Assembly (NCBI GenBank): GCA_015493635.1
Contig: WGCU01000081.1
Span: 62,001 to 126,000 of the forward strand
Length of the DNA: 64,000 bases
Source: Spirochaetaceae bacterium
GTDB lineage: Bacteria > Spirochaetota > Spirochaetia > B11-G9
Direction: 5' to 3'
Shown here: in pieces, positions 16,413 to 40,069 of the stretch
Layout of the letters: each line of letters begins with the position of its first letter
How positions within the stretch are numbered: position 1 is the stretch's first letter
Notes under the pieces: generated by a model
Databases searched by the model: none
What the model saw: the letters and a program-made list of their open reading frames with translations, nothing else
Told to the model about the DNA's origin: nothing
Program-made: the position numbers and the translations under genes

Positions 16413-16899
16413 TTATTTTTTTAATTTCAGCAAGATGGAATATCTCACAAAAGAAAAACCTGAAGGATGTATCCTCTGTCTCATTGCTGAGAATTCAGAG
16501 AAAGTCGTTAAATTAAAAGTTTGGGAAAATGATCTTTTTATTGCATCGGTAAACCTTTATCCCTATAATCCGGGACATCTTATTATTTTTCCCAGGCGTC
16601 ACATTACAGACATACGGGAATTCACACGAAAAGAAGAACAGCAGATGGTTATCATAACGAGATCTCTGCTTACCATTATTGATCTAACCCATACTCCTTC
16701 TGCGTATAACATAGGCTATAACATGGGACCGGTAGCAGGAGCATCAATTTCCCATCTCCATCAGCACATCATTCCCCGTTATCCAAGAGAAATAGGTATT
16801 GCTGATCTCATTGCCGGGAAAAAAGTTCTTGTTGAAGACCCCCGGGTAACCTGTGAACGGATAAAACATACTATTCAGAAAAATCCTATACTGTTATAA
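16405..16899 (+). CDS. HIT-family nucleotide hydrolase/transferase
   Basis: 164 residues with the histidine-triad motif HLHQHIIPR (HxHxHxx) at about 118-126 and the upstream NLYPYNPGHLIIFPRRH strand typical of the Ap4A phosphorylase/hydrolase-like HIT branch. CILCLI near the N-terminus matches the Cys pair seen in that branch. Likely acts on dinucleoside polyphosphates or nucleoside phosphoramidates in the cytosol. The start at 16405 overlaps the preceding gene (ATGAG); a Met eleven codons later is possible, but NYFFNFSK upstream is usual in related spirochaete proteins. The 3' end overlaps the convergent DUF5312-like gene by 14 bp. Confidence 0.9.
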   Translation: MSNYFFNFSKMEYLTKEKPEGCILCLIAENSEKVVKLKVWENDLFIASVNLYPYNPGHLIIFPRRHITDIREFTRKEEQQMVIITRSLLTIIDLTHTPSAYNIGYNMGPVAGASISHLHQHIIPRYPREIGIADLIAGKKVLVEDPRVTCERIKHTIQKNPILL

Positions 16900-18637
16900 G
16901 CATATGATGATAGAGATGTTCCGTCATCTTCAGTTTCTCGATAGAATCATCAAGAAGTTCCTGAAGAACAACCGGCTTGTTATCAATAAGATAATGCTGT
17001 TTTAACTGGTCTATAATTACATCATTCGTACTCTTGTTAACCTCTGAAAAGACCCGTTTGAGGCCTCCCAAAGCTTCAATCCCGTTTTCTCCCAAATTTT
17101 TAGCTTCCCGATCCTTCTGGATAACTATTTTCCGAAATATTTTTTGCTGGGAAATGTCTTTTACCATGGTAAAACGCAATTTGTGGAAGATCTTACCCTC
17201 TTCAGAATCAGGCGAAAGTGAGTTATCAAAAACTCTTATTTTTTCAGAAACATCCTCCATGGTTGAAGCGTACTGCAGCATGTTATCCCGTATAAGTCTG
17301 TTTTGGGAAAGAACACTTTTTTCCAGAACCCTGACAATTGACTGAATACGCCCCCTGTAGAAACATTCAATAAAATTATACACAAGAGAAAGCGGTTCAA
17401 CATATCTGAATGATGAAACGCCCAGTTTCTCATAATCAATTGAAGAATATTCACGGTAATTCTGAAATTTGACAAAACGTTTTCCTTTGAATAGTTTATC
17501 AATTTCCATTATAACGTACTGTTTCTGTATAGCGGGGAACTGTTCGTCAAGCAGTTGAAGCAATTTTATTTTTAGAGAGTTTCTGTAAAACTCTCTCAGA
17601 TCAATACCCTGGATATAAAATATCATTTTTATAAAGGGGTTCTTTTTAAAATATCGTATCAAGTCCGCCAGAGGAACCTTGTCGGAAAAAGCGTTTACTT
17701 TGCTGATTAGGTTTTCAAGATCAGCTGATACCGTCCGATTTGTATCTGTTTCGGTATAAGCGGCCAGATTCTCCATACGGCTGGCTAGTTTTGAACTCAT
17801 CCGCACTCTTTTTTCCAGCTTCAGTGCAGAATATACAGCAAAATAAAGTTTTTCAAGATCATCAAGACAAAGAGCTGCAGAAGCATTTTTAAAATGAGGC
17901 TTATCAGTGTACGGAGTATCAAGAAGAGTATATCCGAATTGTTGAAAAAATTGTACATAGGGAAAAAGGACCAGATCCTTTAATCGATAAAAAGGCAATA
18001 ACTCGTGCTCAAGATTTTTGAAGACATCTTTTTTTATTTTTTCAATGTACCGGTCCAGCCTCTCAATAATAACATTCTGGACATCTTCTTTCCGGCCGGA
18101 GATTCCAAAGGCAGCTACAATATCCTCAAAAGGTACAATATCTTCAATCATCTCTATCTTATCAGAGAGGGAATCTTCTATTATCTCCAGAAAAAACAAA
18201 TTATAAGATCTTTCATCCAGCCAGAGTATTTTAAACAGTGGAAGAAGAGGAGTAGCAGACTTATATAATTCATATACAAGTTCAGCAAAATGAGGAGTAA
18301 GATTCCTTGTTTCGAATCCTGTTAAGTTTGCGTCTTTTCTTCTTATTTTCCTTTTTATACGTAAAAGTTTTCCTGCGAGAAGAACTTCATCTTCACTTTT
18401 CCCGGATATTTTTGCTTTTAAGCAAAGGAGAAACCTTCTTAACATTGAAAAATGCTGTTTTTCTTTCCTGATAAGGGCATTTTTTTCGTCTTTATCCATC
18501 TCTTCCTGCTGAAGTCCACTGTTTCCTTCATCAAGGCTGAGACTCGTTTTAATTTTCTGAAGCAAAGCTGTACGTTCTTTCTGTGTTATACCCCGTGAAA
18601 GGTCATGCAGTACAATATCCGATTTTTCCACTTCCAA
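16886..18637 (-). CDS. DUF5312-like spirochaetal protein
   Basis: 583 residues, soluble, mostly helical, rich in Lys, Glu and Leu, with no signal peptide, membrane span or catalytic motif that I recognise. The overall look (long helical protein with SLVYNFIECFYRGRIQSIVR and similar segments) fits the spirochaete-restricted DUF5312 family; this is recollection rather than a search. Function unknown. It sits six bases downstream of the thiamine pyrophosphokinase gene, so the two are probably co-transcribed, and it overlaps the convergent HIT gene at the 3' end. Confidence 0.6.
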   Translation of the reverse strand: MEVEKSDIVLHDLSRGITQKERTALLQKIKTSLSLDEGNSGLQQEEMDKDEKNALIRKEKQHFSMLRRFLLCLKAKISGKSEDEVLLAGKLLRIKRKIRRKDANLTGFETRNLTPHFAELVYELYKSATPLLPLFKILWLDERSYNLFFLEIIEDSLSDKIEMIEDIVPFEDIVAAFGISGRKEDVQNVIIERLDRYIEKIKKDVFKNLEHELLPFYRLKDLVLFPYVQFFQQFGYTLLDTPYTDKPHFKNASAALCLDDLEKLYFAVYSALKLEKRVRMSSKLASRMENLAAYTETDTNRTVSADLENLISKVNAFSDKVPLADLIRYFKKNPFIKMIFYIQGIDLREFYRNSLKIKLLQLLDEQFPAIQKQYVIMEIDKLFKGKRFVKFQNYREYSSIDYEKLGVSSFRYVEPLSLVYNFIECFYRGRIQSIVRVLEKSVLSQNRLIRDNMLQYASTMEDVSEKIRVFDNSLSPDSEEGKIFHKLRFTMVKDISQQKIFRKIVIQKDREAKNLGENGIEALGGLKRVFSEVNKSTNDVIIDQLKQHYLIDNKPVVLQELLDDSIEKLKMTEHLYHHMLITV

Positions 18638-19267: not shown

Positions 19268-20353
19268 TTATTCCACTCTCCTTTTTATCCGTTTTAATTT
19301 CAATGCCGTACATTGTAGAGCTTCTTCAAGAGGTTCAGTTTTTGAACGAAAAAATGTATCGATAAATGTATCATTAAAATTACTTTTAAAATACACGGAA
19401 CATTCCTGTGCTTTCTCCATGAGTAAGCGGTAAAATTTTTCAAAATGAGCCATTTCTTCAAAAAGGGCAACAACCACAGAAGGATTTTCCCGCATAAAAA
19501 AGAGGGAAAGGTGTTCAGAAACACTCTTATAGGCATCCCAGCACCTATGCAGCAGTATACGAAAGTCTTCAAGAAGCGTACAGGAATCAGCACATCTACG
19601 AGGTGACGAATTCCGGCCGGTTGAAAGAACCTGAGCAAGTTTTTCCTCAAGACAGTCAAAAGGAAGAAAACCCTGCGCAGAAGTAATCTCAGTAATAACA
19701 ATACGTGAATCATACGCATGCTGCAGGTAATACATATTTTCGATGCTGCACTGCCTATCGTGTTGATATGAACGGTAAAGAGAGAGTACCGGAAGACGAA
19801 AAGGATCCTTATCTGATAAAGACAAATTTTGTACTATCAGTTTTTTATTCTTTTCAGATACAAGACGGGATAATTCCGCTGTCCGTTTACTGTCTGTATT
19901 GAACATTGCGGGGGGGACTTTCAAACAGACAGTTAGAGAATGTGTTAATAAAGAAAATAAATCATCTATCATCTCTCCGTATAACGCAGTTAAACCGACT
20001 GCGTCATGGACTATCTGCGTGTTATCAGGGAACCCTGGTGCAAAATGACGATAATGTTTTTCCTTAATAATAAAATCATTATTATCAAATACGGAAAGAA
20101 CCGGAATAATCTCTATTCCGAATTGATGTGCTTTCTCATTCAGTTTTTGTACCATGGTTTCCGGATACTCTTTTTCACTTCCAAAATGAAAATCTTCAGA
20201 CCACGGGAAATATTCTCCGAAATCTATAAATAAATACCTGCTTCCGGCATTCTTCATCACAGAAAGAAGCTGGAAAAAACAACTAGTACGGTATGGTGAT
20301 GATGAGACATCAATATAGACCCCTTGTATCTCATCAGACAGTATATTCATCAT
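19268..20353 (-). CDS. Putative GH20-like TIM-barrel protein
   Basis: 361 residues, cytoplasmic (no signal peptide). The N-terminal 110 residues resemble the barrel start of family 20 glycoside hydrolases: an IQGVYIDVSSSPYR strand, a YLFIDFGEYFPW segment, then YPETMVQKLNEKAHQFGIEI followed by IPVLSV, matching the family's 'search the path then go to the elders' layout. I cannot see the paired Asp-Glu catalytic motif, and the C-terminal 130 residues are helical and unlike the family. It may be a non-catalytic or divergent sugar-binding protein. Three bases separate it from the thiamine pyrophosphokinase gene. Confidence 0.55.
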   Translation of the reverse strand: MMNILSDEIQGVYIDVSSSPYRTSCFFQLLSVMKNAGSRYLFIDFGEYFPWSEDFHFGSEKEYPETMVQKLNEKAHQFGIEIIPVLSVFDNNDFIIKEKHYRHFAPGFPDNTQIVHDAVGLTALYGEMIDDLFSLLTHSLTVCLKVPPAMFNTDSKRTAELSRLVSEKNKKLIVQNLSLSDKDPFRLPVLSLYRSYQHDRQCSIENMYYLQHAYDSRIVITEITSAQGFLPFDCLEEKLAQVLSTGRNSSPRRCADSCTLLEDFRILLHRCWDAYKSVSEHLSLFFMRENPSVVVALFEEMAHFEKFYRLLMEKAQECSVYFKSNFNDTFIDTFFRSKTEPLEEALQCTALKLKRIKRRVE

Positions 20354-20355
20354 AC

Positions 20356-20384
20356 TTGTATTTTATGTTTTTTCTTACTATTAT
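20356..20384 (+). promoter_or_regulatory. Sigma-70 promoter of the DUF1015 gene
   Basis: -35 TTGTAT (20356-20361), 17-base spacer, -10 TATTAT (20379-20384). The predicted transcript starts about 20391 and carries AGGAGG just before the ATG at 20407. The -35 begins three bases from the start codon of the divergent minus-strand gene. Confidence 0.6.
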
Positions 20385-20406
20385 GCGATATAAACAGGAG
20401 GTATTT

Positions 20407-21744
20407 ATGACTGATTTACAGCACAGATTGGAAAAGATTGCGTTAAAGGTACCTGAAATTTACCTTCCATCCCGAAAAGACAAGATGAAAGAATGGGCTG
20501 TTGTCGCATGCGACCAGTATTCTTCTGACAAGGGATACTGGCATGATGTAGAAAAAACCGTTCAGGGCAACCCATCTACATTAAACCTGATTTTTCCTGA
20601 ATGCTATTTAAATGATCCTGATCCTGATGAAAGAATACACACTATTAACAAAACCATGGAAACGTATCTTGAAAAGAAAATCCTTTCAAAAATCGGGCCC
20701 GCATTTTTTCTTGTGGAAAGAAAAACTGCTTCAGGGGCAGTACGTCATGGCCTTATAGCCGCTCTTGATCTAGAAGCGTACGATTACTCAAGAAATTCCA
20801 TAAGTCTGATCCGGGCAACAGAAGGAACTATAGAAGACAGAATCCCTCCGCGGAAAAAAATAAGGGAAGGAGCTCCGCTGGAACTTCCACACATACTCGT
20901 CCTGATAGATGACCCTGATAATACAGTTATCGAACCGCTTATAACAAAAGAGAAAACATTTGAATGTGTCTATGACTTCGAGCTTATGAAAAATGGCGGC
21001 CACATCAGGGGATTTAAAGTCGACGATGAGAGTACCCTCGAATCGATTGTATCCGCTTTCGAAAAACTGGCAGACAAGGATTCCTTTCAGGCTCAATACG
21101 GTGATTCACATGTTCTCCTCTATGCCATGGGTGACGGCAATCACTCGCTGGCAACGGCAAAGGCCGTGTGGGAAGACATCAAAAAGGAAAATACACACTC
21201 AGCGGATATCATGAATCATCCTGCCCGGTGGGCTCTTGTTGAAATTGAAAATATTCATGATTCGGGAATCGTTTTTGAACCAATTCATCGTGTTCTCTTT
21301 AACTGTACATCAGATATGTTTTTTAACGCTCTTGACGCATCCGGATCGTTCATCTACAACAAAATGGATTCTCTTGATGAGGTTATCTCCTCATTAAAAA
21401 AACCAGCACTGACTCAAAAAATCGGTTTTTGTGATAATAATAGTCTCGGAATTATAGAGATTTCAAATCCGGCGGCCACAATTGCCGCGGGTTCCCTGCA
21501 AAAAACTATTGAAATTCTAATTGAACAGGAGAGCAATGTATCTGTCGATTACATACATGGAGATGAAGAAACATACACATTGGGTACTCAGGAAAATAAT
21601 ATAGGATTATTTCTTCCTGCTATTAGTAAAGATACCTTTTTCAGAACCATCGTAACGGACAAGACCTTCCCGCGCAAAACATTTTCAATGGGGGAAGCAG
21701 ATGAGAAACGGTTCTATATAGAATGCAGGAAAATTATTCCGTAA
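20407..21744 (+). CDS. DUF1015-family protein
   Basis: 445 residues starting MTDLQHRLEKIALKVPEIYL; the ATG has a perfect AGGAGG five bases upstream, so I reject the longer frame. DUF1015 features are present: the early Pro/Ala-rich start with CDQYSS, VERKTASGAVRHGLIA, LPHILVLIDDP, and the conserved GDGNHSLATAKAVW. DUF1015 proteins are widespread in bacteria and have been suggested to be SerK-like kinases in archaea; the function here is unknown. Monocistronic on the plus strand. The 3' end overlaps the Sua5-type gene by 11 bp. Confidence 0.9.
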   Translation: MTDLQHRLEKIALKVPEIYLPSRKDKMKEWAVVACDQYSSDKGYWHDVEKTVQGNPSTLNLIFPECYLNDPDPDERIHTINKTMETYLEKKILSKIGPAFFLVERKTASGAVRHGLIAALDLEAYDYSRNSISLIRATEGTIEDRIPPRKKIREGAPLELPHILVLIDDPDNTVIEPLITKEKTFECVYDFELMKNGGHIRGFKVDDESTLESIVSAFEKLADKDSFQAQYGDSHVLLYAMGDGNHSLATAKAVWEDIKKENTHSADIMNHPARWALVEIENIHDSGIVFEPIHRVLFNCTSDMFFNALDASGSFIYNKMDSLDEVISSLKKPALTQKIGFCDNNSLGIIEISNPAATIAAGSLQKTIEILIEQESNVSVDYIHGDEETYTLGTQENNIGLFLPAISKDTFFRTIVTDKTFPRKTFSMGEADEKRFYIECRKIIP

Positions 21745-22300
21745 GGTATGCATCAGGAACAGAACAAGCTCCTGACCTGATTATTTTATAGGGGCGGGAT
21801 GTAATATCAATAATTGTGGAAGGTTTACGGTTAGGAAGATCTCCCGCATCTATAAATGCGTCAGCTTCACTGCCGAACTCGTTTATAATATCACTTGATC
21901 TGAAAAGAATTGCTTCTCCGCTCCGGTTAACACTTGTGGAATACAGCGGCTTTCCGATGGATTCGAGAAGATCAACAAGAAATGGATCCTCAGGGACCCT
22001 GACAGCTGTTGTTGCTCCCCCCCGGCTCTGAACAATAAAGGTTAATTTGCCCGGACACAAAGAGGCAAGAGACGGTTCTATGGATTTTGAAGAAAAATCA
22101 GAAAGCCAATCTGAAAGAATGAGTTGGAGGAAACCTTTCTTCTGGCTCCTCTTTTTAATTCTGTTTAATTTTTCAGCAGTGTCCGGAGCAATGCCGACAA
22201 AGCCGTAAATTGTATCACAAGGCATAATAACAATACCGCCATGGGATAAGATTTCAACAATTTCAAACTTCTGAATATTTTTGTCTGAGAGGATAAACAT
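21734..22300 (-). CDS. L-threonylcarbamoyladenylate synthase (Sua5/YrdC/TsaC type)
   Basis: 188 residues of the YrdC fold: GGIVIMPCDTIYGFVG (the conserved PTDTxYG variant), RIKKRSQKKGFLQLILSD with the Lys/Arg substrate loop, PGKLTFIV, TTAVRVPEDPF, and STSVNRSGE with the SxN motif. It makes threonylcarbamoyl-AMP for the t6A37 modification of ANN-decoding tRNAs. This is the short form without the Sua5 C-terminal domain. The start overlaps the FtsB-like gene by 38 bp, an unusually long overlap; a later start would remove part of strand 1, so I keep it. Confidence 0.92.
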   Translation of the reverse strand: MFILSDKNIQKFEIVEILSHGGIVIMPCDTIYGFVGIAPDTAEKLNRIKKRSQKKGFLQLILSDWLSDFSSKSIEPSLASLCPGKLTFIVQSRGGATTAVRVPEDPFLVDLLESIGKPLYSTSVNRSGEAILFRSSDIINEFGSEADAFIDAGDLPNRKPSTIIDITSRPYKIIRSGACSVPDAYLTE

Positions 22301-22724
22301 TCTTTTTCCTTTCGAGCATCATGAGGAGAAGGAAAACAAGGAGTCCGGAAGTGAGGGAAAAATACCGGATAAAGAGTATGCTCGTATGCCTTTCATTAAA
22401 TCCTTTATAAAGACTGCCCAAAGGGAAAACTTTCTTTTGAGGTTTATACCCGTCAAAATAGATCACTCCCTCATACTCAGAATAAAAACCTAAGGTACGT
22501 GCTTCAAGAGCTATCGCTTCGGGATTATCCTGCAGACTTTGAACTTCCGCTTCCAGCCTTTTGTTTATTTTTTCCATTTGGGCAGTATTGTTTTCGATCT
22601 TAAGAAGATAGTGCTTTAACCTCTGGGTTTCAGCATACCCATCAGGTCCAAAAAAGAACGAAAACCAGGTAAATATAATAAAAGATACGTATACACTGAT
22701 GATAGTATTAAACCAGAGCTTCAT
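22263..22724 (-). CDS. FtsB/DivIC-like septum formation initiator with two membrane spans
   Basis: 153 residues. The N-terminal membrane span (about 5-26) is followed by a GPDGYAE motif, a coiled coil (LLKIENNTAQMEKINKRLEA), and the EAIALEARTLGFYSEYEGVI segment typical of the FtsB/DivIC end domain. These proteins form the FtsQLB-type divisome complex. Unlike ordinary FtsB, there is a second hydrophobic segment at about 112-135 (FIRYFSLTSGLLVFLLLMML) and a basic tail. It is upstream of and overlaps the tsaC-like gene by 38 bp. The DivIC-family call is good; the C-terminal span is odd. Confidence 0.8.
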   Translation of the reverse strand: MKLWFNTIISVYVSFIIFTWFSFFFGPDGYAETQRLKHYLLKIENNTAQMEKINKRLEAEVQSLQDNPEAIALEARTLGFYSEYEGVIYFDGYKPQKKVFPLGSLYKGFNERHTSILFIRYFSLTSGLLVFLLLMMLERKKNVYPLRQKYSEV

Positions 22725-22924: not shown

Positions 22925-25159
22925 ATGGTATCTAAAAATTCGGATAAAAAAGAGAAATTAGAAGATAAAGAGCTTGAACAGTACGGTGTGTGGGTTAAGG
23001 CAGGCCCCGAAGAGATTGAAACTGAAGACAGTTCAAGTGATTTTGCTCTCTCTGATATTGATAATCCCGCTCACAAACACGCTATAACGGATGAAGAAGA
23101 GAAACTCCTTAGTGACCTTGAAGATAATGATAATGAAGTGAATAGCCTTGATGACCTCAGCTTTGATGATATAGATACTGAAGATACCACAGAAACGTTT
23201 GATATGCCCCTTGATTTTGAAGACACTCCTCCTGCAACAGAAACAGAAAGTAAGGACGACTCTATAGAAAACGAAAAGGAATCCTCTGAAATGCACGATG
23301 TAGATCTAGATGAATTTGAGCCAGATGAACTGGAACTGGACGACCTTGATGTTGAAGAACTTGATTTGGAAGACATTGAAGATATAGAAGAAGAAATGGA
23401 TCAACCTGAAGAAACCAATGGAACAGTTCCTGATGAGCATGAAGAACAAGAAGATGATGATTTCGACCTTGACCTTGATGAAGATCTACTGGCGATTGAC
23501 CTCGATGAAGATCTTGACAGTCTTGATGTTGATTCGCTTCTTGAAGAAGACAATCTACAAAAAACAACATCTTCAATCAGCACTGATGATACCGCAGCTT
23601 CCTCTGATTTCTCAGAAGATGCTATGGAAGAAATTACCCTTGATGATTTTGATCTCGATAATGAAGATGTTATCACAGATATTGAAGAAGGAGAACTGGA
23701 AGAAATCCCGGCCTTTGAAACAGAAGAAGATATAGTATCATCTCTTGATAATGAAAATGAGAAAGAGGATTTCTCCGGTGATTTTGATGAAACTGAAAGT
23801 ATTATTGAGGATCTTACAACGATGGAGAGTGAAGATTCAAATATTCTGGATATCTCACCGGATAATGAAACCATGGAAGAGTCCCGTACTGGAAAAGATG
23901 AATCTGTTGATTCAGCTACAGAAGTTTTAAAGAAAATAGAAGATGAGCTTCTCACTATCAAAAAAGAAATTCTATCAATGAAAGAGGAACTATCTTCTAT
24001 GCGCCCGGCTCAGGAACAACAGCCATCTGGTACAGATCAATCCAAAGAAGCAGATTTTTTCAGTGAAGATGAAGATGAGACAATTGCTCTTACTGGCGAT
24101 GAGCTTGATAATATTCTTAATACAGCAGATATTACGGAAGAACTTTGTGAGGGAACTGAACTGCCCGATGATAAGGTAGAACCTTCTGTGGAAACACTTC
24201 CGAACGAGGAATTACTATCCGTTGATCAAAATGCACTTATTGACCAGCCTGATATTCTTGATGATATATCTATCGATGAAACACAAGAAACCTCAGAAAC
24301 TTTGGATGAAACGCTCGATGCTGTAGAAGAGATCGATTTCCCCGATGAACCTGATCTGGAACTCGACGATTCAAGTCTTGATACCGAGGAAGAAGATGCT
24401 GCTCTGGAACCGGTGGAAATACTCGAAGATATTGATGAAGAGCAGCCCGAAATGGAGCTTTTTTCTGAAGAGCCAGCCCTTGAAATACCTTCATCGGATA
24501 CAGATGCTTCTTTTGAAGAAAGTGCATTTGAAGAGGGAGGAGATGAGGAAATATTTATAGAAGATTTACCAGAACTTGAAGAGATCCCTGACGAAGATAG
24601 TGAATTACTGTTAGAAGATCTTGAAGAATTATCTGAAGAATTACCTGAAAATGATATTGAATCTATTCTTCCTCCTGATGAACCCTCAGAACCTCTCGAA
24701 AGGTCTGTTATTGACATAGAAATACCGGAACTGCAGGAAGAGCATGATAGTGACGTGTTGGAAGATATCACCCTGGAAGATAATTTTATAGAAGCAGAAG
24801 TACCTGAAGCAGAAGTACCTGAAGCAGAAGTACCTGAAGCAGAAACACCTGAAGTAGAAACACCTGAAGTAGAAACACCTGAAGTAGAAACACCTGAAGT
24901 AGAAGTACCTGAAGCAGAAATACCTGAAGCAGAAGTACCTGATACTGAAGTCCCGAATTTTCCTGATAAAGAGGATGAAACTGCTGCTGCAGGTTCTGAA
25001 GAAACAATACCATCTTATCTTCAACCGGAAGTTATCTCAGTTCTTTCATATATGGATCAGCTTCTTGAATCACTTCCAGAAGACAAGATCGAAGAATTTG
25101 CAAATTCGGAGTACTTTGCTGTTTATAAAAAATTATTTGATGAGTTGGGGCTTCATTGA
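22925..25159 (+). CDS. Large acidic repeat protein (spirochaetal, unknown)
   Basis: 744 residues, cytoplasmic by sequence, with an extreme content of Asp and Glu across residues 40-720. The first 35 residues are mixed and look ordered, including the segment LEQYGVWVKAGPEEI. A short coiled coil sits near 335-365 (LKKIEDELLTIKKEILSM), and pentapeptide EAEVP/EVETP repeats lie at about 623-677. The last 50 residues are again ordered and helical (YLQPEVISVLSYMDQLLESL, ending FDELGLH). This arrangement of small ordered ends with a long acidic, probably unstructured middle suggests a scaffold or spacer. It heads a plus-strand run with a GAF/GGDEF-like gene and two DUF115 genes. AGGAG precedes the ATG. 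The Ser-rich frames opposite are shadows. I do not know its function. Confidence 0.8.
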   Translation: MVSKNSDKKEKLEDKELEQYGVWVKAGPEEIETEDSSSDFALSDIDNPAHKHAITDEEEKLLSDLEDNDNEVNSLDDLSFDDIDTEDTTETFDMPLDFEDTPPATETESKDDSIENEKESSEMHDVDLDEFEPDELELDDLDVEELDLEDIEDIEEEMDQPEETNGTVPDEHEEQEDDDFDLDLDEDLLAIDLDEDLDSLDVDSLLEEDNLQKTTSSISTDDTAASSDFSEDAMEEITLDDFDLDNEDVITDIEEGELEEIPAFETEEDIVSSLDNENEKEDFSGDFDETESIIEDLTTMESEDSNILDISPDNETMEESRTGKDESVDSATEVLKKIEDELLTIKKEILSMKEELSSMRPAQEQQPSGTDQSKEADFFSEDEDETIALTGDELDNILNTADITEELCEGTELPDDKVEPSVETLPNEELLSVDQNALIDQPDILDDISIDETQETSETLDETLDAVEEIDFPDEPDLELDDSSLDTEEEDAALEPVEILEDIDEEQPEMELFSEEPALEIPSSDTDASFEESAFEEGGDEEIFIEDLPELEEIPDEDSELLLEDLEELSEELPENDIESILPPDEPSEPLERSVIDIEIPELQEEHDSDVLEDITLEDNFIEAEVPEAEVPEAEVPEAETPEVETPEVETPEVETPEVEVPEAEIPEAEVPDTEVPNFPDKEDETAAAGSEETIPSYLQPEVISVLSYMDQLLESLPEDKIEEFANSEYFAVYKKLFDELGLH
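24791..24955 (+). repeat. Eleven 15-bp tandem repeats in the acidic gene
   Basis: The unit GAAGCAGAAGTACCT (Glu-Ala-Glu-Val-Pro) recurs eleven times in frame, with variants GAAGTAGAAACACCT clustered in the middle and a degenerate last copy. Because the unit is 15 bp, copy changes keep the frame. Near-identity of neighbouring copies points to recent slippage or unequal exchange. Confidence 0.95.
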
Positions 25160-25162
25160 TAG

Positions 25163-26110
25163 ATGGGCCTACTTGATAATGTTTTAGTACAGCAGAACAA
25201 CAAAAAAAAAAGCACCCCACCTCCTTCAAGTTTAAAGGATAAGAGTGTAGATTTTTACTCAGCAGAACAAATGCTTCCAGAGGATACAACATATCCAGAA
25301 GCTGTCCTTGATCTCTTGAACCGTTTTTTTATGATCGATAAAGTACTTATCATGACATATCGTTTCAAAACAGATACATGGATTCCCTTTGCTACATCGG
25401 GGCTGGATATTACATCAGCAAGGAGAATACGTTTTAAAGGTATGGCATATTCTTCATTGTTTCCTCATTCATTTACCATTCTAGAGGATCCTGCTCAGCT
25501 TTCTCTTTTTAAGCCATTGTTATCCATTAGGGAATTTTCAATGCTCACCAGAATTGAAACCATCTATCCTGAATCAAGTTCTTCACAACCAACGACATCT
25601 CTTATGCTATTTAACAATAGTACCGGTTCTACCTTTAAAAAAGAACTATTGTTTGCTGCAGGAAGAATTGACACAGTACTTGAGAATAATAAAATATCAG
25701 ATGATTCTTCATTTTCCATTTCACTTTTTGTTTCTCAGTATCTTTCAAAAGCCAAAAATAAAAAATTCTATCTTTTCAAACTCGATTGTGAAGAAATCAT
25801 TATGTTTATTCAGGAAACTCTCACTGAAGATTTTGAGAAAAGGCAGCTCATTCAGGATATATTTGATACTATTTATTCAATGGTAAAAATCTCGGGAAGA
25901 CTTCTACAGATTGATACATACACGTCTTTACTTCTGTACTCAAGCACATCCATCAAAAATCCACAGCTTATTATCTCTCAAATTACCAATGCCATTAAAC
26001 ACTATTATAATATTCAAACTGATGTACCATCTATAACAAGCACCTCTCTGATCTATCCAGATGACGGGGAAGATTCGGAAACACTGTTAAGAAAGATGCA
26101 CATTTTATAG
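25163..26110 (+). CDS. GAF-like / degenerate GGDEF-like protein
   Basis: 315 residues, soluble. After a basic, Pro-rich leader, residues about 40-160 look like a GAF-type sensor (EAVLDLLNRFFMIDKVLIMT, WIPFATSGLD). The C-terminal part resembles the end of a diguanylate cyclase domain: TSLIYPDDGEDSETLLRKM matches the usual 'S.G.A.YP.DGED...LLR.AD' segment, but no GG(D/E)EF active-site loop is present and the protein stops where the last helix would begin. So it is probably not a cyclase; it may be a protein partner. It follows the acidic gene by 3 bp and is itself followed by two DUF115 genes. The GAF and GGDEF resemblance is by eye. Confidence 0.65.
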   Translation: MGLLDNVLVQQNNKKKSTPPPSSLKDKSVDFYSAEQMLPEDTTYPEAVLDLLNRFFMIDKVLIMTYRFKTDTWIPFATSGLDITSARRIRFKGMAYSSLFPHSFTILEDPAQLSLFKPLLSIREFSMLTRIETIYPESSSSQPTTSLMLFNNSTGSTFKKELLFAAGRIDTVLENNKISDDSSFSISLFVSQYLSKAKNKKFYLFKLDCEEIIMFIQETLTEDFEKRQLIQDIFDTIYSMVKISGRLLQIDTYTSLLLYSSTSIKNPQLIISQITNAIKHYYNIQTDVPSITSTSLIYPDDGEDSETLLRKMHIL

Positions 26111-26122
26111 AGAAACTGATCT

Positions 26123-27625
26123 GTGAAAAAAAACAGCATTTCAATTCGTTCTACGTATTCTCCGGAAAAGGAAGCAGAACGTTTCATCCTTCAACAGCAT
26201 GTAAAAAAAGGGAAATACCTTTTTATTGTTATTGGAGCTGGACAGGGTTTCCTTGCCCGGACCCTGGCACGTATATACCCAGGGTCACAGATTGTTTCTT
26301 TTTATCTTGATGATGATCTTTTTTATGAAGCAGGCAGCCCCGAAAAAAGCTGGCATCCTGGTTCATCTTTCTCCCTAGCCATGTTTTTAAGTAATGAAAT
26401 AGATGATGTTTTTGTTCCTCTTCTTAATCTGGTGCAGTGGAAACCGTGCAGCAAGGCATACCCTATTTTGTTTAAAACGGTACTGACATCCATACATCAC
26501 TATATAAACGAACGGAACGCATCCATTGTCACGACTGTTAATTTCGGTAAAATATGGATAAGAAATGTATTTTTTAATTTTTTACAGATTGAACATACCG
26601 TAGCCCTTCAAAATGTTGACCAGCCTATCGTTATAACCGCTGCCGGACCAACCCTTGCGGCATCATTACCAGTCCTTTTATCCTACCGCAGTTGTTTTTT
26701 CCTTATGGCTCTCCCTTCCTCTCTTGCGGCACTTCAAAACTCCGGTATTATCCCCGATCTCATTGTCAATACAGATCCAGGCTTCTGGAACAGGTATCAT
26801 TTTATGAGATTACCCTATAAAAACGTTCCCGTTGCAATGCCGTTAACCGGCAGTATAAACAAGGGCAAGAACCCGGTTCTTTTATTGAACCAAAGATCAT
26901 TCCTGGAGGATTCTCTCAGTCAATCATACTCTTCTCCGGTAATTAATCTTCCTCAGCATGGTACAGTTGCGGGAACTGCCCTTTTTCTTGCTGCTGAAAT
27001 AACGTCAGCACCAGTTATTTTCTCAGGTCTTGATCTATCATATACTGACATACATGAACACGTAAAACCACATCCATTTCACACGCTCATGGAAACGAAA
27101 CAAGACCGGCTGACACCTTTCCTTTCATTACTATTCAATCGTAAAGTAGACCAGCTTAATCAAGACCGGGCTTTTCACACGTACGAAGCGTGGTTTAACC
27201 ATACACACTTTAATAGAAATATCTATAGGCTTAACCCGTCATCAATAAAACTCAACTTTTTTAAAAATATTGATAGCGTAACATTTGCCAGAATGGTAAA
27301 CCCTTTTAACCATGATTATCATCATTACTTTACCTCTTTTCATGATAATTTTGAATCCCGAAAAGAACTACTCGATTCAGCTCTGAAAAAGTTTCTCATG
27401 CATTTTTATAGTAAAAGACAGGAAGTTACCGATTTTTATTCACTTGATTCGTTTATTTATTTTCTAAAGAGCGACCCGGTTGTTTATGAATTTCTTGAAT
27501 CAACCGAACTACAAAATATACTAAAAGCTGTTAAAACAATTGCGGGGAATAATATTTTACGGAAGGAGGATATATCGGATATGTTTTTAAGTACCGAAAA
27601 GTATATAGGGAAGTTTCATGCATAA
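26123..27625 (+). CDS. DUF115 motility-accessory-type protein (copy 1)
   Basis: 500 residues with a GTG start. The central domain carries the DUF115/MAF features: ITAAGPTLAASLPVLLSYRS (the GxGPSL nucleotide-sugar loop, here AAGPTL), IIPDLIVNTDPGFWNRYHF (the family D-x-D-like strand) and FSGLDLSYTDIHEH. An N-terminal Rossmann-like strand (FIVIGAGQGFLARTLARIYP) precedes it. MAF proteins transfer nonulosonic acids such as pseudaminic or legionaminic acid to flagellin in other bacteria; here the role in flagellar glycosylation is inference. The 3' end overlaps the next DUF115 gene by 8 bp. The first Gly of the loop is replaced by Ala, unlike the other two copies. Confidence 0.85.
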   Translation: MKKNSISIRSTYSPEKEAERFILQQHVKKGKYLFIVIGAGQGFLARTLARIYPGSQIVSFYLDDDLFYEAGSPEKSWHPGSSFSLAMFLSNEIDDVFVPLLNLVQWKPCSKAYPILFKTVLTSIHHYINERNASIVTTVNFGKIWIRNVFFNFLQIEHTVALQNVDQPIVITAAGPTLAASLPVLLSYRSCFFLMALPSSLAALQNSGIIPDLIVNTDPGFWNRYHFMRLPYKNVPVAMPLTGSINKGKNPVLLLNQRSFLEDSLSQSYSSPVINLPQHGTVAGTALFLAAEITSAPVIFSGLDLSYTDIHEHVKPHPFHTLMETKQDRLTPFLSLLFNRKVDQLNQDRAFHTYEAWFNHTHFNRNIYRLNPSSIKLNFFKNIDSVTFARMVNPFNHDYHHYFTSFHDNFESRKELLDSALKKFLMHFYSKRQEVTDFYSLDSFIYFLKSDPVVYEFLESTELQNILKAVKTIAGNNILRKEDISDMFLSTEKYIGKFHA

Positions 27626-29285
27626 TTTAAAGAATTCTTTTCTTGAAACAAATCTTCTATCTCTATCGTCCGGCAATGCACAGTTAGCAGAGCAGCTCTC
27701 ATATGCAGAGGAATCAGACTCTCTCTCTATAGCAGAAAGTAAAAAGGGCAAACTTATTCCTCTCATAGTAAAAAATATGAGACAAATACCACTTCATTCA
27801 AGATTTGATCCGGAGAAAGAAGGTAATAGATTTTTTAATACATTTAATAATTCCGGTTACATTGTTTTTCTTGGTTTTGGAGCTGCATATCATATAAATC
27901 CTTTCCTTGCAAACAAACAAATTTCAGAAATACTTATTATAGACAAGGATATAGGTATCTTTAAAAAAATAATTCATTATTTTAATCTTACGGGTATTTT
28001 TCTGGATAAACGCGTTAAAATACTTATTGATCCTGAACCTGAAATAATTACCAGCTTCATACTAAAACACTATATTCCTGCTATTTCTGGGAATCTTCAC
28101 ATTCTGAAATTACGATCCAGAGTAGAAACAGAACCCGATTTTTTCTCACAAGTTACCCGCACCATAAATAATGTCATAGCACCACTCTCTGAAGATTTTT
28201 CTGTACAATCCTACTTTGGAAAGAGATGGTTTATAAATACTTTGAATAATCTTGAAGCAGCTGAAAAAGCAACCACAACTATCCCTCCCGTACAAACAGC
28301 TCTTGTTATAGGAGCTGGGCCATCACTGGAAGTCCAAATGCCTGAAATTAAACAACTAATGCCGGACAGCTTTATTATTTCCACTGATACGGCACTTCCT
28401 GCTCTCTTGAAATTTAATATTAAACCGAATCTGGTTATTTCCATTGATTGTCAGCATATTACCTATTTTCATTTCCTGGAAGGACTCCCTCAAGGGATTC
28501 CTCTCGTTATCGATTTAGCATCACCAAGAAATATGACAAAATTAACAGAAAACATTCTGTTTTTTACAAGCGGACATCCTTTTTCCCTGTATGTAAAAAA
28601 TAAATGGAGAAGTTTTCCATTTATCGACACATCAGGAGGCAATGTCAGTCATGCCGCCGTGTCCCTTGCATATTCACTGGGAGCTAAACATATTCACCTT
28701 TTCGGTGTTGATTTTTCCTATCCGCGCGGTAAAAGCTATGCACGGGGGACCTATCTATACCCTTATTTCTGTTCCCGTTCGAATCGCTTTTCCCCGCTTG
28801 AAAATTATTTTATTACCTTTCTTTTCCATAATGACCAGATAGACAAAAAATATGATCCATCAGGCATCCGTTATGTAACAAAACCAATGATAAGTTACAA
28901 GACTAGACTTGAATCACTTATTTCAGATCTTGATACAGAAGTTATTCCTTCCAAAGGGGAAGGTGAAAAAATATATTGTAAGAATAATCACAAAGAAAAG
29001 ACAATGAAGCGCTTCCCGAGTATTCTGTCAGCAGGTCCTGCAGATACAAGCTGGAAGCTCTTTTTACACAGATATGACCGGATTCTATCAACACTTCCCA
29101 TTCCGAAATATTCAGTGTCCGAATACATGAATTCACTTACTCCACTTCAAAAAGAAATTTGTACAACGATTCTTCCTGCCGCAGCTGCAATTAGAAAAGA
29201 CGCGCCTCAGGGAATGACAGGGACTCAAATACTGAAGGAAACCATTGAGTGGACTAGAAATGTAATGAAGCGATATATTTCTTAA
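27618..29285 (+). CDS. DUF115 motility-accessory-type protein (copy 2)
   Basis: 555 residues. It has an N-terminal nucleotide-fold strand (YIVFLGFGAAYHINPFLANK), then the central DUF115 domain: TALVIGAGPSLEVQMPEIKQ, IISTDTALPALLKFNIKPNL, VISIDCQHITYFHF and HLFGVDFSYPRGKSYARGTY. The C-terminal 150 residues are helical. Predicted glycosyltransferase acting on flagellin or another surface protein. The ATG has AGGGAAG five bases upstream and overlaps copy 1 by 8 bp. Its TAA stop is inside the palindrome TTAA, which also forms the stop of the convergent MEMO gene. The three DUF115 proteins in this window are diverged, not recent duplicates. Confidence 0.88.
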   Translation: MHNLKNSFLETNLLSLSSGNAQLAEQLSYAEESDSLSIAESKKGKLIPLIVKNMRQIPLHSRFDPEKEGNRFFNTFNNSGYIVFLGFGAAYHINPFLANKQISEILIIDKDIGIFKKIIHYFNLTGIFLDKRVKILIDPEPEIITSFILKHYIPAISGNLHILKLRSRVETEPDFFSQVTRTINNVIAPLSEDFSVQSYFGKRWFINTLNNLEAAEKATTTIPPVQTALVIGAGPSLEVQMPEIKQLMPDSFIISTDTALPALLKFNIKPNLVISIDCQHITYFHFLEGLPQGIPLVIDLASPRNMTKLTENILFFTSGHPFSLYVKNKWRSFPFIDTSGGNVSHAAVSLAYSLGAKHIHLFGVDFSYPRGKSYARGTYLYPYFCSRSNRFSPLENYFITFLFHNDQIDKKYDPSGIRYVTKPMISYKTRLESLISDLDTEVIPSKGEGEKIYCKNNHKEKTMKRFPSILSAGPADTSWKLFLHRYDRILSTLPIPKYSVSEYMNSLTPLQKEICTTILPAAAAIRKDAPQGMTGTQILKETIEWTRNVMKRYIS

Positions 29286-30139: not shown

Positions 30140-30200
30140 ATTGGATAAAATGAAAAGAAAAAAGGTTTTAAAATGGACAAAAATTACGTATAATAAATAT

Positions 30201-31256
30201 ATGAAAGAAAATCATACCGGTGTTTACAATATTCTTAGTATTCTTCTTTTGATCAGCGTTCTTTTGTGGATGGGATTACGACTTACTATCAGAGTAGATA
30301 TGAACACCCGTAAAATGAATACAGCTTTTAATGCTGTCAGCTCAACAATTCTGGAAGATATCTTCCTTAACAAACAACCAACATCAAGAACTTCCAATTT
30401 TGTAAAACTATCAAATCTTGCTCTCTCCAGTCCCTCTTTAAAATCCCTTCTTATAACAGATAACAACGGTAAACCCGTTTATATTTTTGCTAGAAACGCC
30501 GGTGCTGTAAAACGGCAGGAGGGGGTTCCTCCGGTCCAGATAATCGATACGATAAAAGATAGGGAGATAAGCACTTTTGAATCTTTCAATGGCAGCATTT
30601 ATCATATTCAATCAGTATTCACCGTTTTAAAGAACTCTCTCCTGGTTCAAACAATAATAATCGGACTTGTAGTACTTCTTGCATTATGTCTTTTATCCAT
30701 CTTCATTATGGTATCACTGTACAGAAAGTCAGGGAAAAAGAGTTCACAACATCCCTCTACCATCCATGAAAAGACCACTGAATATACTAATAAAGAATCC
30801 TTTCCTCTTTTAAAACTTACCAACGAATTAAAGCGAGCAGCTTCTTTTGACCAGGATCTTACCCTCGTACTTATAAAAACCGAACAAGATTTTATCAAAA
30901 CCAACAACAGTAGCTTTCTTGAATTTTTACATGAAATTTTTTCCTATTCTGATCTTATTTTTAAATACTCTGAAACAGAATTTGCCCTTATCCTCCCCAA
31001 CGAGGATATTGATTCAGGGATAGCCCGCATACGGGATTTCGACCAGAACGCTTCCAACAAGTTTAATATCTTAAGCCTCTACCCCTTCCACTATGGTTTA
31101 AGCTCCCGAAACGGCAGACTGATAGACGGTCAAATACTCTATTCTGAAGCCTCCGCGGCTCTTAGAAAATCTCTACAGGACAACGATGCACATATTATAG
31201 GGTTCCGTCCTGATCCGGCAAAATACAGGGAGTTCCTTTCAAAAGGAAAATACTAG
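30201..31256 (+). CDS. Membrane protein with degenerate GGDEF-like domain
   Basis: With the start at 30201 (MKENHTGVYNILSILLLISV) the product has 351 residues. A first membrane span lies at about 8-32, an extracytoplasmic domain of about 100 residues follows, and a second span is near 145-170 (TIIIGLVVLLALCLLSIFIM). The cytoplasmic domain resembles GGDEF: the motif strand reads FKYSETEFALILPNED, so the GGDEF loop is SETEF and cannot bind GTP as in active cyclases. The frame runs up to a TTG at 30141 and an ATG at 30150, but no start has a Shine-Dalgarno; a perfect TATAAT ends six bases before the 30201 ATG. CTAG at the end is shared with the convergent DUF4340 stop. Confidence 0.75.
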   Translation: MKENHTGVYNILSILLLISVLLWMGLRLTIRVDMNTRKMNTAFNAVSSTILEDIFLNKQPTSRTSNFVKLSNLALSSPSLKSLLITDNNGKPVYIFARNAGAVKRQEGVPPVQIIDTIKDREISTFESFNGSIYHIQSVFTVLKNSLLVQTIIIGLVVLLALCLLSIFIMVSLYRKSGKKSSQHPSTIHEKTTEYTNKESFPLLKLTNELKRAASFDQDLTLVLIKTEQDFIKTNNSSFLEFLHEIFSYSDLIFKYSETEFALILPNEDIDSGIARIRDFDQNASNKFNILSLYPFHYGLSSRNGRLIDGQILYSEASAALRKSLQDNDAHIIGFRPDPAKYREFLSKGKY

Positions 31257-36007: not shown

Positions 36008-38494
36008 TTATAGTCCTATTGATGTTGTTGATTCAACCTGTTTCGGTTTATCTACCGTAAAAGAAAGCTGCCCTTTCCTTATTCCAGCAGTTACACTACT
36101 GCCTCCGGGACATTTGCCCTGAAGGATATACACAGAAAGAGGATCTTCTATTTTCTTCTGTATGACCCGCCGGATAGGACGGGCTCCGAACTTGGGATCC
36201 CAGCCTTTTTTTACTATATATTCCTTTGCACTGTTGCTGAATTTTAAAATAATATTCATCTCAAGAAGGCGCATTTTTACTTCATCGAGAAGGATATCAA
36301 CAATATTTCTAATTTCTCCATGGTTGAGACTGCTGAATACTACTATCTCATCAACACGGTTAATAAACTCGGGTCGGAACTGAAGACGAAGCTCATTCAG
36401 AGCTGAAGCTTTTATTTCCGAATAGTTTAAAATTCCTTCTCCCGCTTTAAAACCAAGCGTATTGTCTGTCGAAATTTGACGCACTCCGACATTTGAAGTC
36501 ATAATAAGTACTGTATTCTTAAAAGAAACTTTATGGCCAAGGTTGTCCTGAAGTTCTCCCTCTTCAAGAAGCTGGAGAAGCAGATTAAAAACATCAGGGT
36601 GTGCTTTTTCAATCTCATCCAGCAGAATGACACAGTAGGGACGCCGTCTTACTTTCTCTGTAAGGAGCCCCCCTTCTTCATAACCTACATACCCGGGAGG
36701 AGCTCCAACAAGACGGCTGATATTGTGCTTTTCCATAAAATCAGACATATCAAGACGAATGAGAGCATCTTCCCTGCCAAAAAGGAACTGGGCAAGGGTT
36801 TTAGCAAGAAGTGTTTTCCCCACTCCTGTGGGTCCGAGAAAGATAAACGAACCAAGCGGTCTGTTTGGTGAAGACACACCGGTTCTTGACCGGCGGATAC
36901 TTGATGCAATAACACGAATAGCTTCATTCTGTCCAATAACCGTTTTATGCAGTTCTTCTTCTATTTTCAAAAGTTTTTCAGATTCAGACTCTGCAATTCT
37001 GGATACAGGGATTCCGGTTATGCTTGAGATAATTTTATCAATGTCATTTTCATCTACCGGAACTTTTTCTACCTTCATGGATTTATTCCAGTCAGACAGC
37101 ATATGATCCATTTCTGTCTTCATCTGGCGGATTTGATCCCGCGTAGCTGCAGCCTTTTCGTAATCCTGATTATTAACCAGTTCTATCTTTTTAGACGTCA
37201 GCTCTTCAATCGTATCTTCAAGAGCACGTATACGGTCAGGTCTAACAGTATTGTTAATCCGTTTTACCGCTCCCGCTTCATCAATAAGATCTATAGCTTT
37301 ATCAGGGAGGAAACGATCCGTTATGTATCGTTGAGATAAAGTAGCTGCTGCTATTACTGCTTTTTCGGTATACATAACATGGTGGTGTTCTTCATATTGG
37401 CTTTTAATTCCTTTTAAAATCTCAATAGTATTCTCGAGAGACGGTTCTTCAACAAAAATACTCTGAAAGCGTCTCTCCAAAGCAGAATCCTTTTCAATAT
37501 GTTTTCTAAACTCGTCGAGGGTTGTTGCACCAATACACTGAAGTTCTCCCCGTGAGAGAGCTGGTTTAAACATGTTTGACGCATCAATTGCCCCTTCAGC
37601 TCCCCCGGCTCCAATAATCGTATGTAATTCATCGATAAAGAGGATGATATTACCATCACTAACAATTTCTTTCATGACACGCTTTAACCGTTCTTCAAAC
37701 TCACCACGGTATTTTGTCCCTGCGATCAAGGAAGCGATATCAAGAGTAAGCACCCGTTTCCCAAGGAGGAGATCAGGAGCAACACCGTCCACGATTCTTT
37801 GAGCAAGCCCCTCAACAATTGCCGTCTTTCCAACACCGGGAGCCCCGACAAGGACAGGATTATTTTTCGTTCTCCGGGCAAGTATCTGGATCACCCGTTT
37901 TATTTCTTTTTCTCTCCCTACAACAGGATCAAGTTTCCCCGTACGTGCATATTCAGTGAGATCTCTTGAAAAGGTATTTAATGTCGGAGTACCTTTTTTA
38001 CCAACAGGAGCACCTTTCTTCCGTACAGGCTGTTGAGCAGCGTTTCTATGAGTACGGGAACCGCGAATTTCAACAATAACCCGCTTAAAATCTTCATACC
38101 CGACAGAATACTTTGCAAGATGCCGCTGCAGAATGCTCCCTGTTTCTTTCATAGATGCAAGGAGAAGATGTTCGGTCCCTATAAATTCATGACCGAGAGC
38201 CTTCGCTTCATTGACAGAGTCTTCAATAATCCTCGTTCCTCTCCGTGATGGCGGTACATCACCGAGGCCCAGGCCCGAGCGTTTCCTCGGGAGACTTTTC
38301 TCAATTTCAAGCTGCAACTCAACAGGATTAATCCTCAATTCATTAAGAGCTTTAATGCCTATTCCTTCACCATCCTTAATAATGGCGAGAATAATATGCT
38401 CGGGCAGCAACTGATCAGAATGAAATCGTTTTGCCTCTTCCTGTGCATATACAGCAAGTATCATCTTAAGACGTTGTGAGTAACCTTTAAACAT
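36008..38494 (-). CDS. clpC: ATP-dependent Clp protease ATPase subunit ClpC
   Basis: 828 residues. Clp N-domain repeats occupy about 1-145. The first AAA module has Walker [17 protein letters not shown] and Walker [16 protein letters not shown]. The middle domain carries a UVR-like segment ([20 protein letters not shown]), and the second module has [16 protein letters not shown] and the [20 protein letters not shown] strand. It unfolds substrates for ClpP, which is not in this window. In Gram-positive bacteria ClpC recognises proteins marked by McsB arginine phosphorylation; the adjacent mcsA-mcsB genes imply the same here. No CtsR repressor gene is next to it, unlike the Bacillus operon. Confidence 0.96.
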
Positions 38495-38508
38495 AGATCC
38501 CCCTGCTC

Positions 38509-39561
38509 CTATTGTAGTAACTTAAGATATGTTTTGGCAAGTTCTGATCGCACATAATCTATATTTTTAGAATCCGTTTCATTCTCATCTCCCATAATAT
38601 GCTGAATATGGGCTTTTTGTATTAGTATCAGCAAAGCATTAACCTGTTCCAGAGGGAGATCGGACCATCCCATAATTATTCCTATCCTGAAATCAGCAAG
38701 ATTTTTTACAGCTTCCGTTAGCGAAAGCAGTCTGCTGTTTTTAAGGAGACCATAAGAACGATAAAAAATATCTTCCATTTCCATACTTTTGCTTTTATGA
38801 AACTGCTCACGGGCTTTCCTTTCGTATTCTGATAGTGCAGCTGTAATAGTGTACAGTCTGCTGATATATTCTTCCTCGCTTAAACCAAGTGACAGCTCGT
38901 TGGATATCTGATAGATACTGCCGAGAGAACCTTCATCATCACCCATAAATCCTTTAACTGAAAATCCCTCTGTAACAGAAGACTTTATTGCCCTGTCAAG
39001 TAATGAGGTCCGGACAAGAAAGGGAAGATGAAGCATCACCGATGCTTTCATTCCAGTTCCCGAATTTCTAACCAGACTGTTGAGATAGCCGAATTCAAGA
39101 GAGACGGCAAAATTCAAGGTATGTTCCAGATGATCTACTATCTCTTTTCCTTCAGTAAACAAGGACTTAAGGTCTAACCCGCCGGTAAAACTTGAAAACC
39201 GGAGATGATCTTGTTCATTAATCATGCATGAGGCACTATTATCCTTTCGGACAAGCACTGTCTTGTTCCTTTTTCCGGAAAAATCTCTTGAAATCAGTTT
39301 TTTTTCAAACAACATTTGTCTATCAACAGGCGATAGAGTTTCAATTTGTATCTGGGTAAAATCCTTCCCTTTGTCCAATGATAAAAACGCTGAGATTATT
39401 TCATCCTCAATCTGCTGTTCATCTTTTAGAATACATTTCCCGGGAAAAAGATATCCTGCCAGGTTCCTCGCAAACCGTATCCGGCTGGAAAGAACGACAT
39501 CATTTTCCGGTCCCTGTTTCTTATACCAGCCCGGAGCACTAAGATATTCTCTTTCATCCAT
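38509..39561 (-). CDS. mcsB: Protein-arginine kinase McsB
   Basis: About 350 residues of the phosphagen-kinase fold: YKKQGPENDVVLSSRIRFAR at the N-terminus, MINEQDHLRFSSF with the conserved Glu, VMLHLPFLVRTS, and GFMGDDEGSLGSIYQISNEL, where Gly-Asp replaces the usual Gly-Glu-Gly loop. It phosphorylates Arg side chains, marking proteins for ClpCP. The frame extends to 39585, but a start at MDEREYLSAPG (39561) or the Met before it fits family length; both overlap the mcsA end. The gene ends 14 bp before clpC. Confidence 0.92.
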   Translation of the reverse strand: MDEREYLSAPGWYKKQGPENDVVLSSRIRFARNLAGYLFPGKCILKDEQQIEDEIISAFLSLDKGKDFTQIQIETLSPVDRQMLFEKKLISRDFSGKRNKTVLVRKDNSASCMINEQDHLRFSSFTGGLDLKSLFTEGKEIVDHLEHTLNFAVSLEFGYLNSLVRNSGTGMKASVMLHLPFLVRTSLLDRAIKSSVTEGFSVKGFMGDDEGSLGSIYQISNELSLGLSEEEYISRLYTITAALSEYERKAREQFHKSKSMEMEDIFYRSYGLLKNSRLLSLTEAVKNLADFRIGIIMGWSDLPLEQVNALLILIQKAHIQHIMGDENETDSKNIDYVRSELAKTYLKLLQ

Positions 39562-40069
39562 CATTATTACCGATTTCGACCTCAATTTCTTTTAATTTAT
39601 CACGCAAAACAACTGCTGTTTCATAATCCTCATTACTGACAGCCTCCTCAAGCTCACGTTTAAGCCGTTCCCTGTCTACAAGTATCGTACGGTACACCTT
39701 CAATTTAGAAGAGACACTCCCTTTGTGGAGCAGCGGAGAAGAGCCCATACCAAGCATATTCCTTATTACCACCCTGAATTCTCTGTAACAGTCAGGACAA
39801 CCTACTTTCCCTTCATTTTTAACTTCAGAAATTTTTGTTCCGCAGGTTGGACAGCGGGTAACATTGTTCGTTATAATTCTGTTAAGACTCTTGCTTTCAA
39901 GCAGATTCATTACCATGTTTATGATACTTGTATTTACAGATGTTCCACCAGTCGTGATATTTTTCTCATGGGCACATTCCTTGCACAGATGAACATCAAT
40001 CGTTTCTTTCCCGATTATCTGCTGAATATGAATAACCGCCTCACGTTTACCGCAAATGTCACACAGCAT
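39554..40069 (-). CDS. mcsA: McsA, activator of protein-arginine kinase (zinc and UVR protein)
   Basis: 171 residues with two zinc-binding Cys pairs at each end of the N-terminal half (LCDICGKREA ... HLCKECAHEKN; CPTCGTKI ... GCPDCYREF) and a C-terminal UVR motif (LKRELEEAVSNEDYETAVVL). This matches McsA, which activates McsB. It has a good ribosome-binding site (AGAGGTGA nine bases before ATG) and a strong promoter upstream, and is the first gene of the mcsA-mcsB-clpC unit. Confidence 0.92.
   Translation of the reverse strand: MLCDICGKREAVIHIQQIIGKETIDVHLCKECAHEKNITTGGTSVNTSIINMVMNLLESKSLNRIITNNVTRCPTCGTKISEVKNEGKVGCPDCYREFRVVIRNMLGMGSSPLLHKGSVSSKLKVYRTILVDRERLKRELEEAVSNEDYETAVVLRDKLKEIEVEIGNNDG

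Follow-up and report, generated by a model that had tools for sequence, protein, structure and literature searches.

Within a 64,000-nt stretch of contig WGCU01000081.1 from a Spirochaetaceae bacterium (hereafter the window), four adjacent genes, which we designate A, G, D1 and D2, belong to a gene set that extends across the class Spirochaetia together with a fifth gene, T. A, D1 and D2 are kept together across Spirochaetia including Treponema, which is not a chance arrangement, and the locus is two-layered, comprising an older A–T pair and a filament-linked D1–D2 set (with G). D1/D2-type genes co-occur with flagellin and with the nonulosonate synthase NeuB, not with the flagellar export apparatus. 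The reading that best joins these data, and which we hold to be moderately probable, is that D1 and D2 glycosylate the flagellin FlaB with a nonulosonic acid, while A, G and T organise or regulate the process.

The locus was first noticed in an original prediction made from the DNA sequence alone, which described an acidic protein, a protein with GAF-like and dead GGDEF-like domains and two DUF115 proteins. The four open reading frames are real: they lie on the plus strand at 22925–29285, and both their coordinates and the gaps of 3, 12 and −8 nt between them were reproduced. The predicted anatomy was right, as judged by the composition of A, an AlphaFold model of G and PF01973 matches of D1 and D2. 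T and a third DUF115 gene (D3) were absent from that account; in this genome, a Memo gene on the opposite strand separates T from D2.

Scans of genome contigs with single sequences gave no matches; alignment-based scans did. With G as query, 20 loci were read from 98 relatives, and A, D1 and D2 flank G in identical order wherever the contig permits, bar one damaged contig (L045). A D2 profile yielded 80 loci in named records, mostly metagenome-assembled genomes of Spirochaetales/Treponema plus Breznakiella homolactica. D1 lies directly upstream of D2 in 72 of the 73 loci with enough sequence, and A lies upstream in 57 of 60. Loss of synteny in close relatives, set beforehand as an outcome that would count against a single module, was looked for and not seen; the probable operon of the original prediction is one conserved gene set, its order kept in relatives. 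The claim that no such system had been described also holds for the literature we searched, which did not extend to the 2017 paper on the Treponema denticola flagellin glycan or to subscription journals, and a later report on Treponema Maf proteins is conceivable. Other families are singled out in a recent study that profiled the motility genes of spirochaetes (PMC12236494).

By homology, D1 and D2 are predicted to be relatives of Maf/DUF115-type glycosyltransferases with putative transfer activity. Both match PF01973 (D1, 2.8e-20, 73.2 bits; D2, 2.9e-32, 112.2 bits; curated cut-off 34.6 bits). In profile searches, D2 matches the solved chain 5mu5 over two stretches (2.7e-16) and D1 matches it weakly over one (0.0008). 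This chain carries the PDB title ‘Uncharacterized protein’, and we take it to be a Maf protein of Magnetospirillum. The Maf N-terminal domain PF20157 is found below cut-off in D2 (0.0039) and in 9 of 18 D2 orthologues at E ≤ 0.001; it was not seen in D1. The NCBIfam model PseD (flagellin modification protein) gave 57.9 for D2 and 21.6 for D1, far under its 670-bit cut-off. D1 and D2 form separate orthologue clades, each with 100/100 support, distinct from the other two DUF115 proteins of this genome, D3 and D4. The two diverged DUF115 proteins first noted are distant Maf/DUF115 relatives linked to flagellin. D3 directly follows a SurA/PrsA-like peptidyl-prolyl isomerase gene (40212–41735, plus strand), a pair kept in G003 (L027). 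D4 (608 aa; L162, 6008–7834, minus strand) lies outside the window and follows a PBP2/SpoVD-like transpeptidase gene.

The phylogenetic profile proposed with the original prediction was run on 297 Spirochaetia genomes. Flagellin was found in 232 and DUF115 proteins in 198, and the two track each other: DUF115 is present in 196/196 flagellin-bearing genomes outside f20, a presumed Borrelia-like family, and in 0/36 within it. Since D1, D3 and D4 of this genome are picked up by the D2 profile as well, a genome scored as negative has no detectable DUF115 protein of any kind. Among the 65 flagellin-less genomes 63 are free of DUF115; one of the other two has a 6e-5 match and the other, G168, is 81% complete and FlhA-positive. 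Presence in non-flagellated spirochaetes, named at the outset as an outcome that would tell against the module, is therefore not seen for D1 and D2 and applies in part to A.

FlhA is retained in 11 flagellin-less genomes and, with G168 set aside, ten have it without flagellin and without DUF115: G016, G074 and G147 in family f10, and G018, G043, G061, G088, G108, G118 and G126 in f12/g14. These appear to hold export machines without filaments, and most keep T. Both families also include flagellated members with DUF115 (G189; G075, G098, G134), so the losses of flagellin and DUF115 in f10 and f12 look like separate events of co-loss. NeuB (PF03102, E ≤ 1e-48) was detected in 44 of 45 sampled flagellated genomes outside f20, this genome included. 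At the same threshold it occurs in 0/4 f20, 0/10 filament-less and 1/15 flagella-less genomes, groups in which the matches returned by the search were weak and mostly in other long frames. The NeuB of this genome is similar to sialic and pseudaminic acid synthases alike, under both curated cut-offs.

In T. denticola, FlaB carries a glycan of 450.2 Da that is required for filament assembly (PMC9481697). It is glycosylated at the motifs VEVSQL and DRIAS, and Borrelia burgdorferi FlaB has other residues in place of their serines (PMC7431986). Both articles cite Kurniyati et al. 2017 for the glycan work, and their available portions name no transferase for it. The two serines correspond to Ser115 and Ser126 in the FlaB of this genome. 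At these positions all 14 f20 flagellins examined have Glu/Asp, and nearly all flagellins from outside f20 have Ser/Ser (among them those of G121, G140 (from the alignment), G014, G039 and G163). Four genomes, G161, G028, G019 and G044, supply the exceptions; G028 keeps Ser115. All four belong to the ten examined genomes with a best D2-profile score in the paralogue range; D4, a paralogue in this genome, scores 3.7e-51 with that profile. Outside f20, Ser126 is lost in 0/41 genomes with an orthologue-range D2 score versus 4/10 with a paralogue-range score only (Fisher p = 0.0008, with a threshold chosen after the scores were seen and no tree correction). In families f13 and f42, the examined members with orthologue-range D2 retain Ser126.

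A is highly acidic (38% Asp+Glu, pI 4.05). Analysis of its sequence revealed no transmembrane (TM) or signal-like segment, and the role at the periplasmic flagellum suggested for it earlier is unlikely because A has no signal peptide. Both ends are conserved, with an N-terminal ELEQYGVWVKxGPEE motif and a C-terminal block of ~45 residues whose mean column identity is 67% in an alignment from 19 genomes. A profile of the C-terminal block gave a single match per genome in 179 of the 297 genomes. Part of the acidic region (24797–24950, plus strand) consists of imperfect ten-residue repeats (E-V/T/I-P-E-V/A-E...). Complete copies of A measure 586–1031 aa where D1 and D2 occur, versus 103–419 aa without them, and A is long and acidic only in their presence. 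Cytoplasmic and almost always found alongside D1/D2, A is the best candidate for a scaffold. We considered whether acidic A and the basic D1 and D2 (median pI 8.9) pair through opposite charge, and set this aside as not specific, because the paralogue D3 is basic too (9.2). As for the earlier proposal that A organises glycosylation, A does stay with D1 and D2, but it is not confined to glycosylation, because a shortened A persists with T in filament-less and flagella-less lineages.

Among the ten filament-less FlhA-positive genomes, T is kept in eight (1e-43 to 1e-54) and A was detected in three: a 207-aa copy in G043, a 419-aa copy in G016 that is no longer acidic (16% Asp+Glu), and one truncated by the contig end in G074. 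A lies next to T in G016 and G074, with no space for G, D1 and D2. The flagella-less families f3, f4, f9 and f18 have T-like genes beside an RNase Z-like gene, near FtsB, TsaC and DUF1015 genes. In f3, f4 and f18 the T-like gene adjoins one for a short protein that contains YGxW or YGxF, and these proteins may, from position and motif, be homologues of A. Since A and T outlive the filament, the pair is the older core. Even in flagella-less families, FtsB/DivIC-like and TsaC genes are found close to the A–T pair (window 21734–22724, minus strand, and 30141–31256, plus strand; also L151–L159).

Structure prediction, suggested with the original prediction, supports a GAF plus dead GGDEF arrangement for G: the AlphaFold model has a GAF-like and a GGDEF-like half (mean pLDDT 84.8; 19 orthologues modelled), and the top matches among solved structures are DcsBis (GAF-GGDEF) and PelD (GAF followed by a degenerate GGDEF), with 4etz and 4dmz within the top five. 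No Pfam family scored above cut-off in G. T consists of a TM segment, an extracytoplasmic beta-rich domain, a second TM segment and a degenerate GGDEF domain. In the orthologue alignments the GG[DE]EF motif is absent from both proteins, the hairpin reading QIDTYTSLLL in G and KYSETEFALILP in T; with this conserved motif missing, we rejected an active diguanylate cyclase for either. The nucleotide sensing suggested for G earlier is a putative role; the canonical RxxD I-site for cyclic di-GMP (c-di-GMP) is, by eye, also missing from the G alignment at the expected spot upstream of the hairpin.

G, which is weakly conserved, usually sits between A and D1. Many termite-gut Treponema have no more than about 140 codons in this space, or none, so that G is short or missing there. 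In L091, L109, L120, L125 and L126 (termite-gut Treponema or related Spirochaetia), A and D1 adjoin directly and leave no space for G. Because the G profile has low sensitivity in Treponema and other groups, gene spacing was also used to judge absence. G is thus not essential everywhere. T directly follows D2 in two genomes of family f24 (L130, L131), which we label Treponemataceae-like by inference.

Taken together, the data suggest the following model, in which we infer the transfer activity, the identity of the sugar, the site specificity and all roles of A, G and T. Cytoplasmic D1 and D2 would place a nonulosonic (sialic-acid-like) sugar on Ser/Thr residues of FlaB before its export through the flagellar type III apparatus, rendering FlaB competent for assembly. 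Modification of the DRIAS serine, Ser126 in this FlaB, would require one of the two enzymes, with D2 as the better fit. A would be a scaffold in the cytoplasm, binding partners through its conserved ends and coiled coil and holding enzymes or substrate with its acidic linker. G may be an adaptor or regulator of the enzymes in the manner of PelD, and T, with its dead GGDEF domain, may be a sensor that tethers A to the membrane or signals to it. The parts given to A, G and T are suggested by architecture and co-retention.

Several observations weigh against this model. A and T persist without flagellin, and many termite-gut Treponema do without a full G. The presence of DUF115 is not equal to that of D2, since the D2 profile picks up paralogues, and the co-occurrence counts are uncorrected for relatedness. 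The four genomes that have lost Ser126 represent three lineages, with the A loci of G019, G044 and G161 uninspected; six others (G069, G104, G283, G228, G101 and G122) keep Ser126 despite weak D2 scores. By itself, the f20 contrast is weak support, because f20 flagellins depart from the others at many further alignment columns. The transfer activity of D1 and D2 is putative. As the genome has four DUF115 genes, D3 or D4 could be responsible for glycosylation, and D1 and D2 could have another function. In one such scenario, D3 or D4 would be the main FlaB glycosyltransferase, and D1 and D2 would lengthen or alter the glycan, or else have other secreted flagellar proteins (FlaA, hook, FlaG) as substrates. 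The large size of the T. denticola glycan (PMC9481697) agrees with this, as does G028, which has a D4-clade protein and keeps Ser115 although D1, D2 and A were not found. The consistent synteny of A, D1 and D2 and the tracking of Ser126 loss by weak D2 scores speak against it, and we judge it rather unlikely.

We give still less credence to the idea that the five genes form a control system for motility or the cell pole around an A–T core, with D1 and D2 glycosylating A or another filament-associated protein in place of FlaB. It would explain why A and T remain in filament-less genomes, adjacent where this can be read, why T still lies beside FtsB/TsaC genes in flagella-less families, and why a long, acidic A is confined to loci with D1 and D2. 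Against it, the loss of DUF115 goes with that of flagellin, NeuB is distributed likewise, and the glycosylated serines of FlaB vary together with the module. That D1 and D2 are pterin pyrophosphokinases unrelated to flagella, as the name MptE given to PF01973 and a weak match of the D2 profile to solved MptE-type enzymes (8sd5, 2e-6) might suggest, was already disfavoured and is extremely improbable: both proteins are about twice as long as the 241-aa solved MptE-type chain, a short single-domain enzyme, D2 has a probable Maf-like N-terminal region, and D1 and D2 match 5mu5 better and co-occur with flagellin and NeuB. FlaB glycosylation by D1 and D2 remains our preferred explanation. A more far-reaching version, which we put forward only tentatively, is that the acidic scaffold, two Maf-type and two dead-GGDEF proteins work as a unit in a spirochaete-specific scaffolded complex, and that acidic residues (Ser115 to Glu, Ser126 to Asp) stand in for the acidic sugar in the Borrelia-like family. 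If so, the Borrelia-like filament, made without the module, would keep negative charges without glycosylation.

Table 1 Genes and sequence features of the locus, with positions in the window.
Feature	Position	Strand	Description
A	22925..25159	+	744 aa, ATG start; acidic, largely disordered; candidate scaffold
A, N-terminal motif ELEQYGVWVKAGPEE	22970..23014	+	Conserved class-wide; also present in the short A of a genome that lacks the filament
A, central coiled-coil-like stretch EVLKKIEDELLTIKKEILSMKEELSSMR	23921..24010	+	From sequence; similar stretch in short A of G043
A, C-terminal conserved block EVISVLSYMDQLLESLPEDKIEEFANSEYFAVYKKLFDELGL	25019..25156	+	From alignment
G	25163..26110	+	315 aa, ATG start; candidate cytoplasmic pseudoenzyme/adaptor
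G, GAF-like half	about 25232-25687	+	
G, degenerate GGDEF-like half	about 25706-26095	+	
D1	26123..27625	+	500 aa, GTG start; predicted DUF115/Maf-type glycosyltransferase (PF01973)
D2	27618..29285	+	555 aa, ATG start; predicted DUF115/Maf-type glycosyltransferase (PF01973)
T	30141..31256	+	Membrane protein; likely real start ATG at 30201
D3	41750-43375	+	Third DUF115 gene, 541 aa

The same conserved neighbourhood includes a gene for a ClpC-like ATPase beside a guanido-kinase (McsB-like) gene (36008–39585, minus strand). Genes for DUF5312 (16886–18637, minus strand) and DUF1015 (20293–21744, plus strand) proteins are syntenic over much of the class.

The locus supplies candidates for the transferase of the Treponema FlaB glycan across flagellated Spirochaetia, with the DRIAS serine as a predicted D2 site, and the absence of the module offers an explanation for how Borrelia-like spirochaetes manage without it. 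The filament-less lineages that keep FlhA separate the filament-linked D1, D2 and NeuB from the older A–T pair, which is an uncharacterised locus beside cell-division genes in many Spirochaetia.

PelD is a c-di-GMP receptor of Pel polysaccharide synthesis, built of a GAF domain and a degenerate GGDEF domain. G shares this predicted domain order and likewise neighbours glycosyltransferases; unlike PelD, it has neither a TM region nor the RxxD I-site, and its partners are Maf-type enzymes. A PelD-type receptor was therefore rejected for G although the fold fits. With the FlaB glycan system of T. denticola the locus shares a taxonomic setting, as its gene order occurs in Treponemataceae-like genomes. 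The Maf (motility accessory/associated factor) proteins that transfer nonulosonic acids to flagellin (Aeromonas Maf1, Campylobacter Maf/PseD and Clostridium botulinum CbMaf) resemble D1 and D2 in the PF01973 core, in homology to 5mu5 and in co-occurrence with flagellin and NeuB. The spirochaete locus differs from them: its two enzymes belong to distinct, diverged groups of orthologues and share an operon with an acidic candidate scaffold and two dead-GGDEF proteins. FlmG of Caulobacter, a modular flagellin glycosyltransferase, also acts on flagellin in the cytoplasm with separately controlled specificity (PMC7591256). Compared with FlmG by description, any part that organises the substrate in the spirochaete locus would be a separate, acidic protein.

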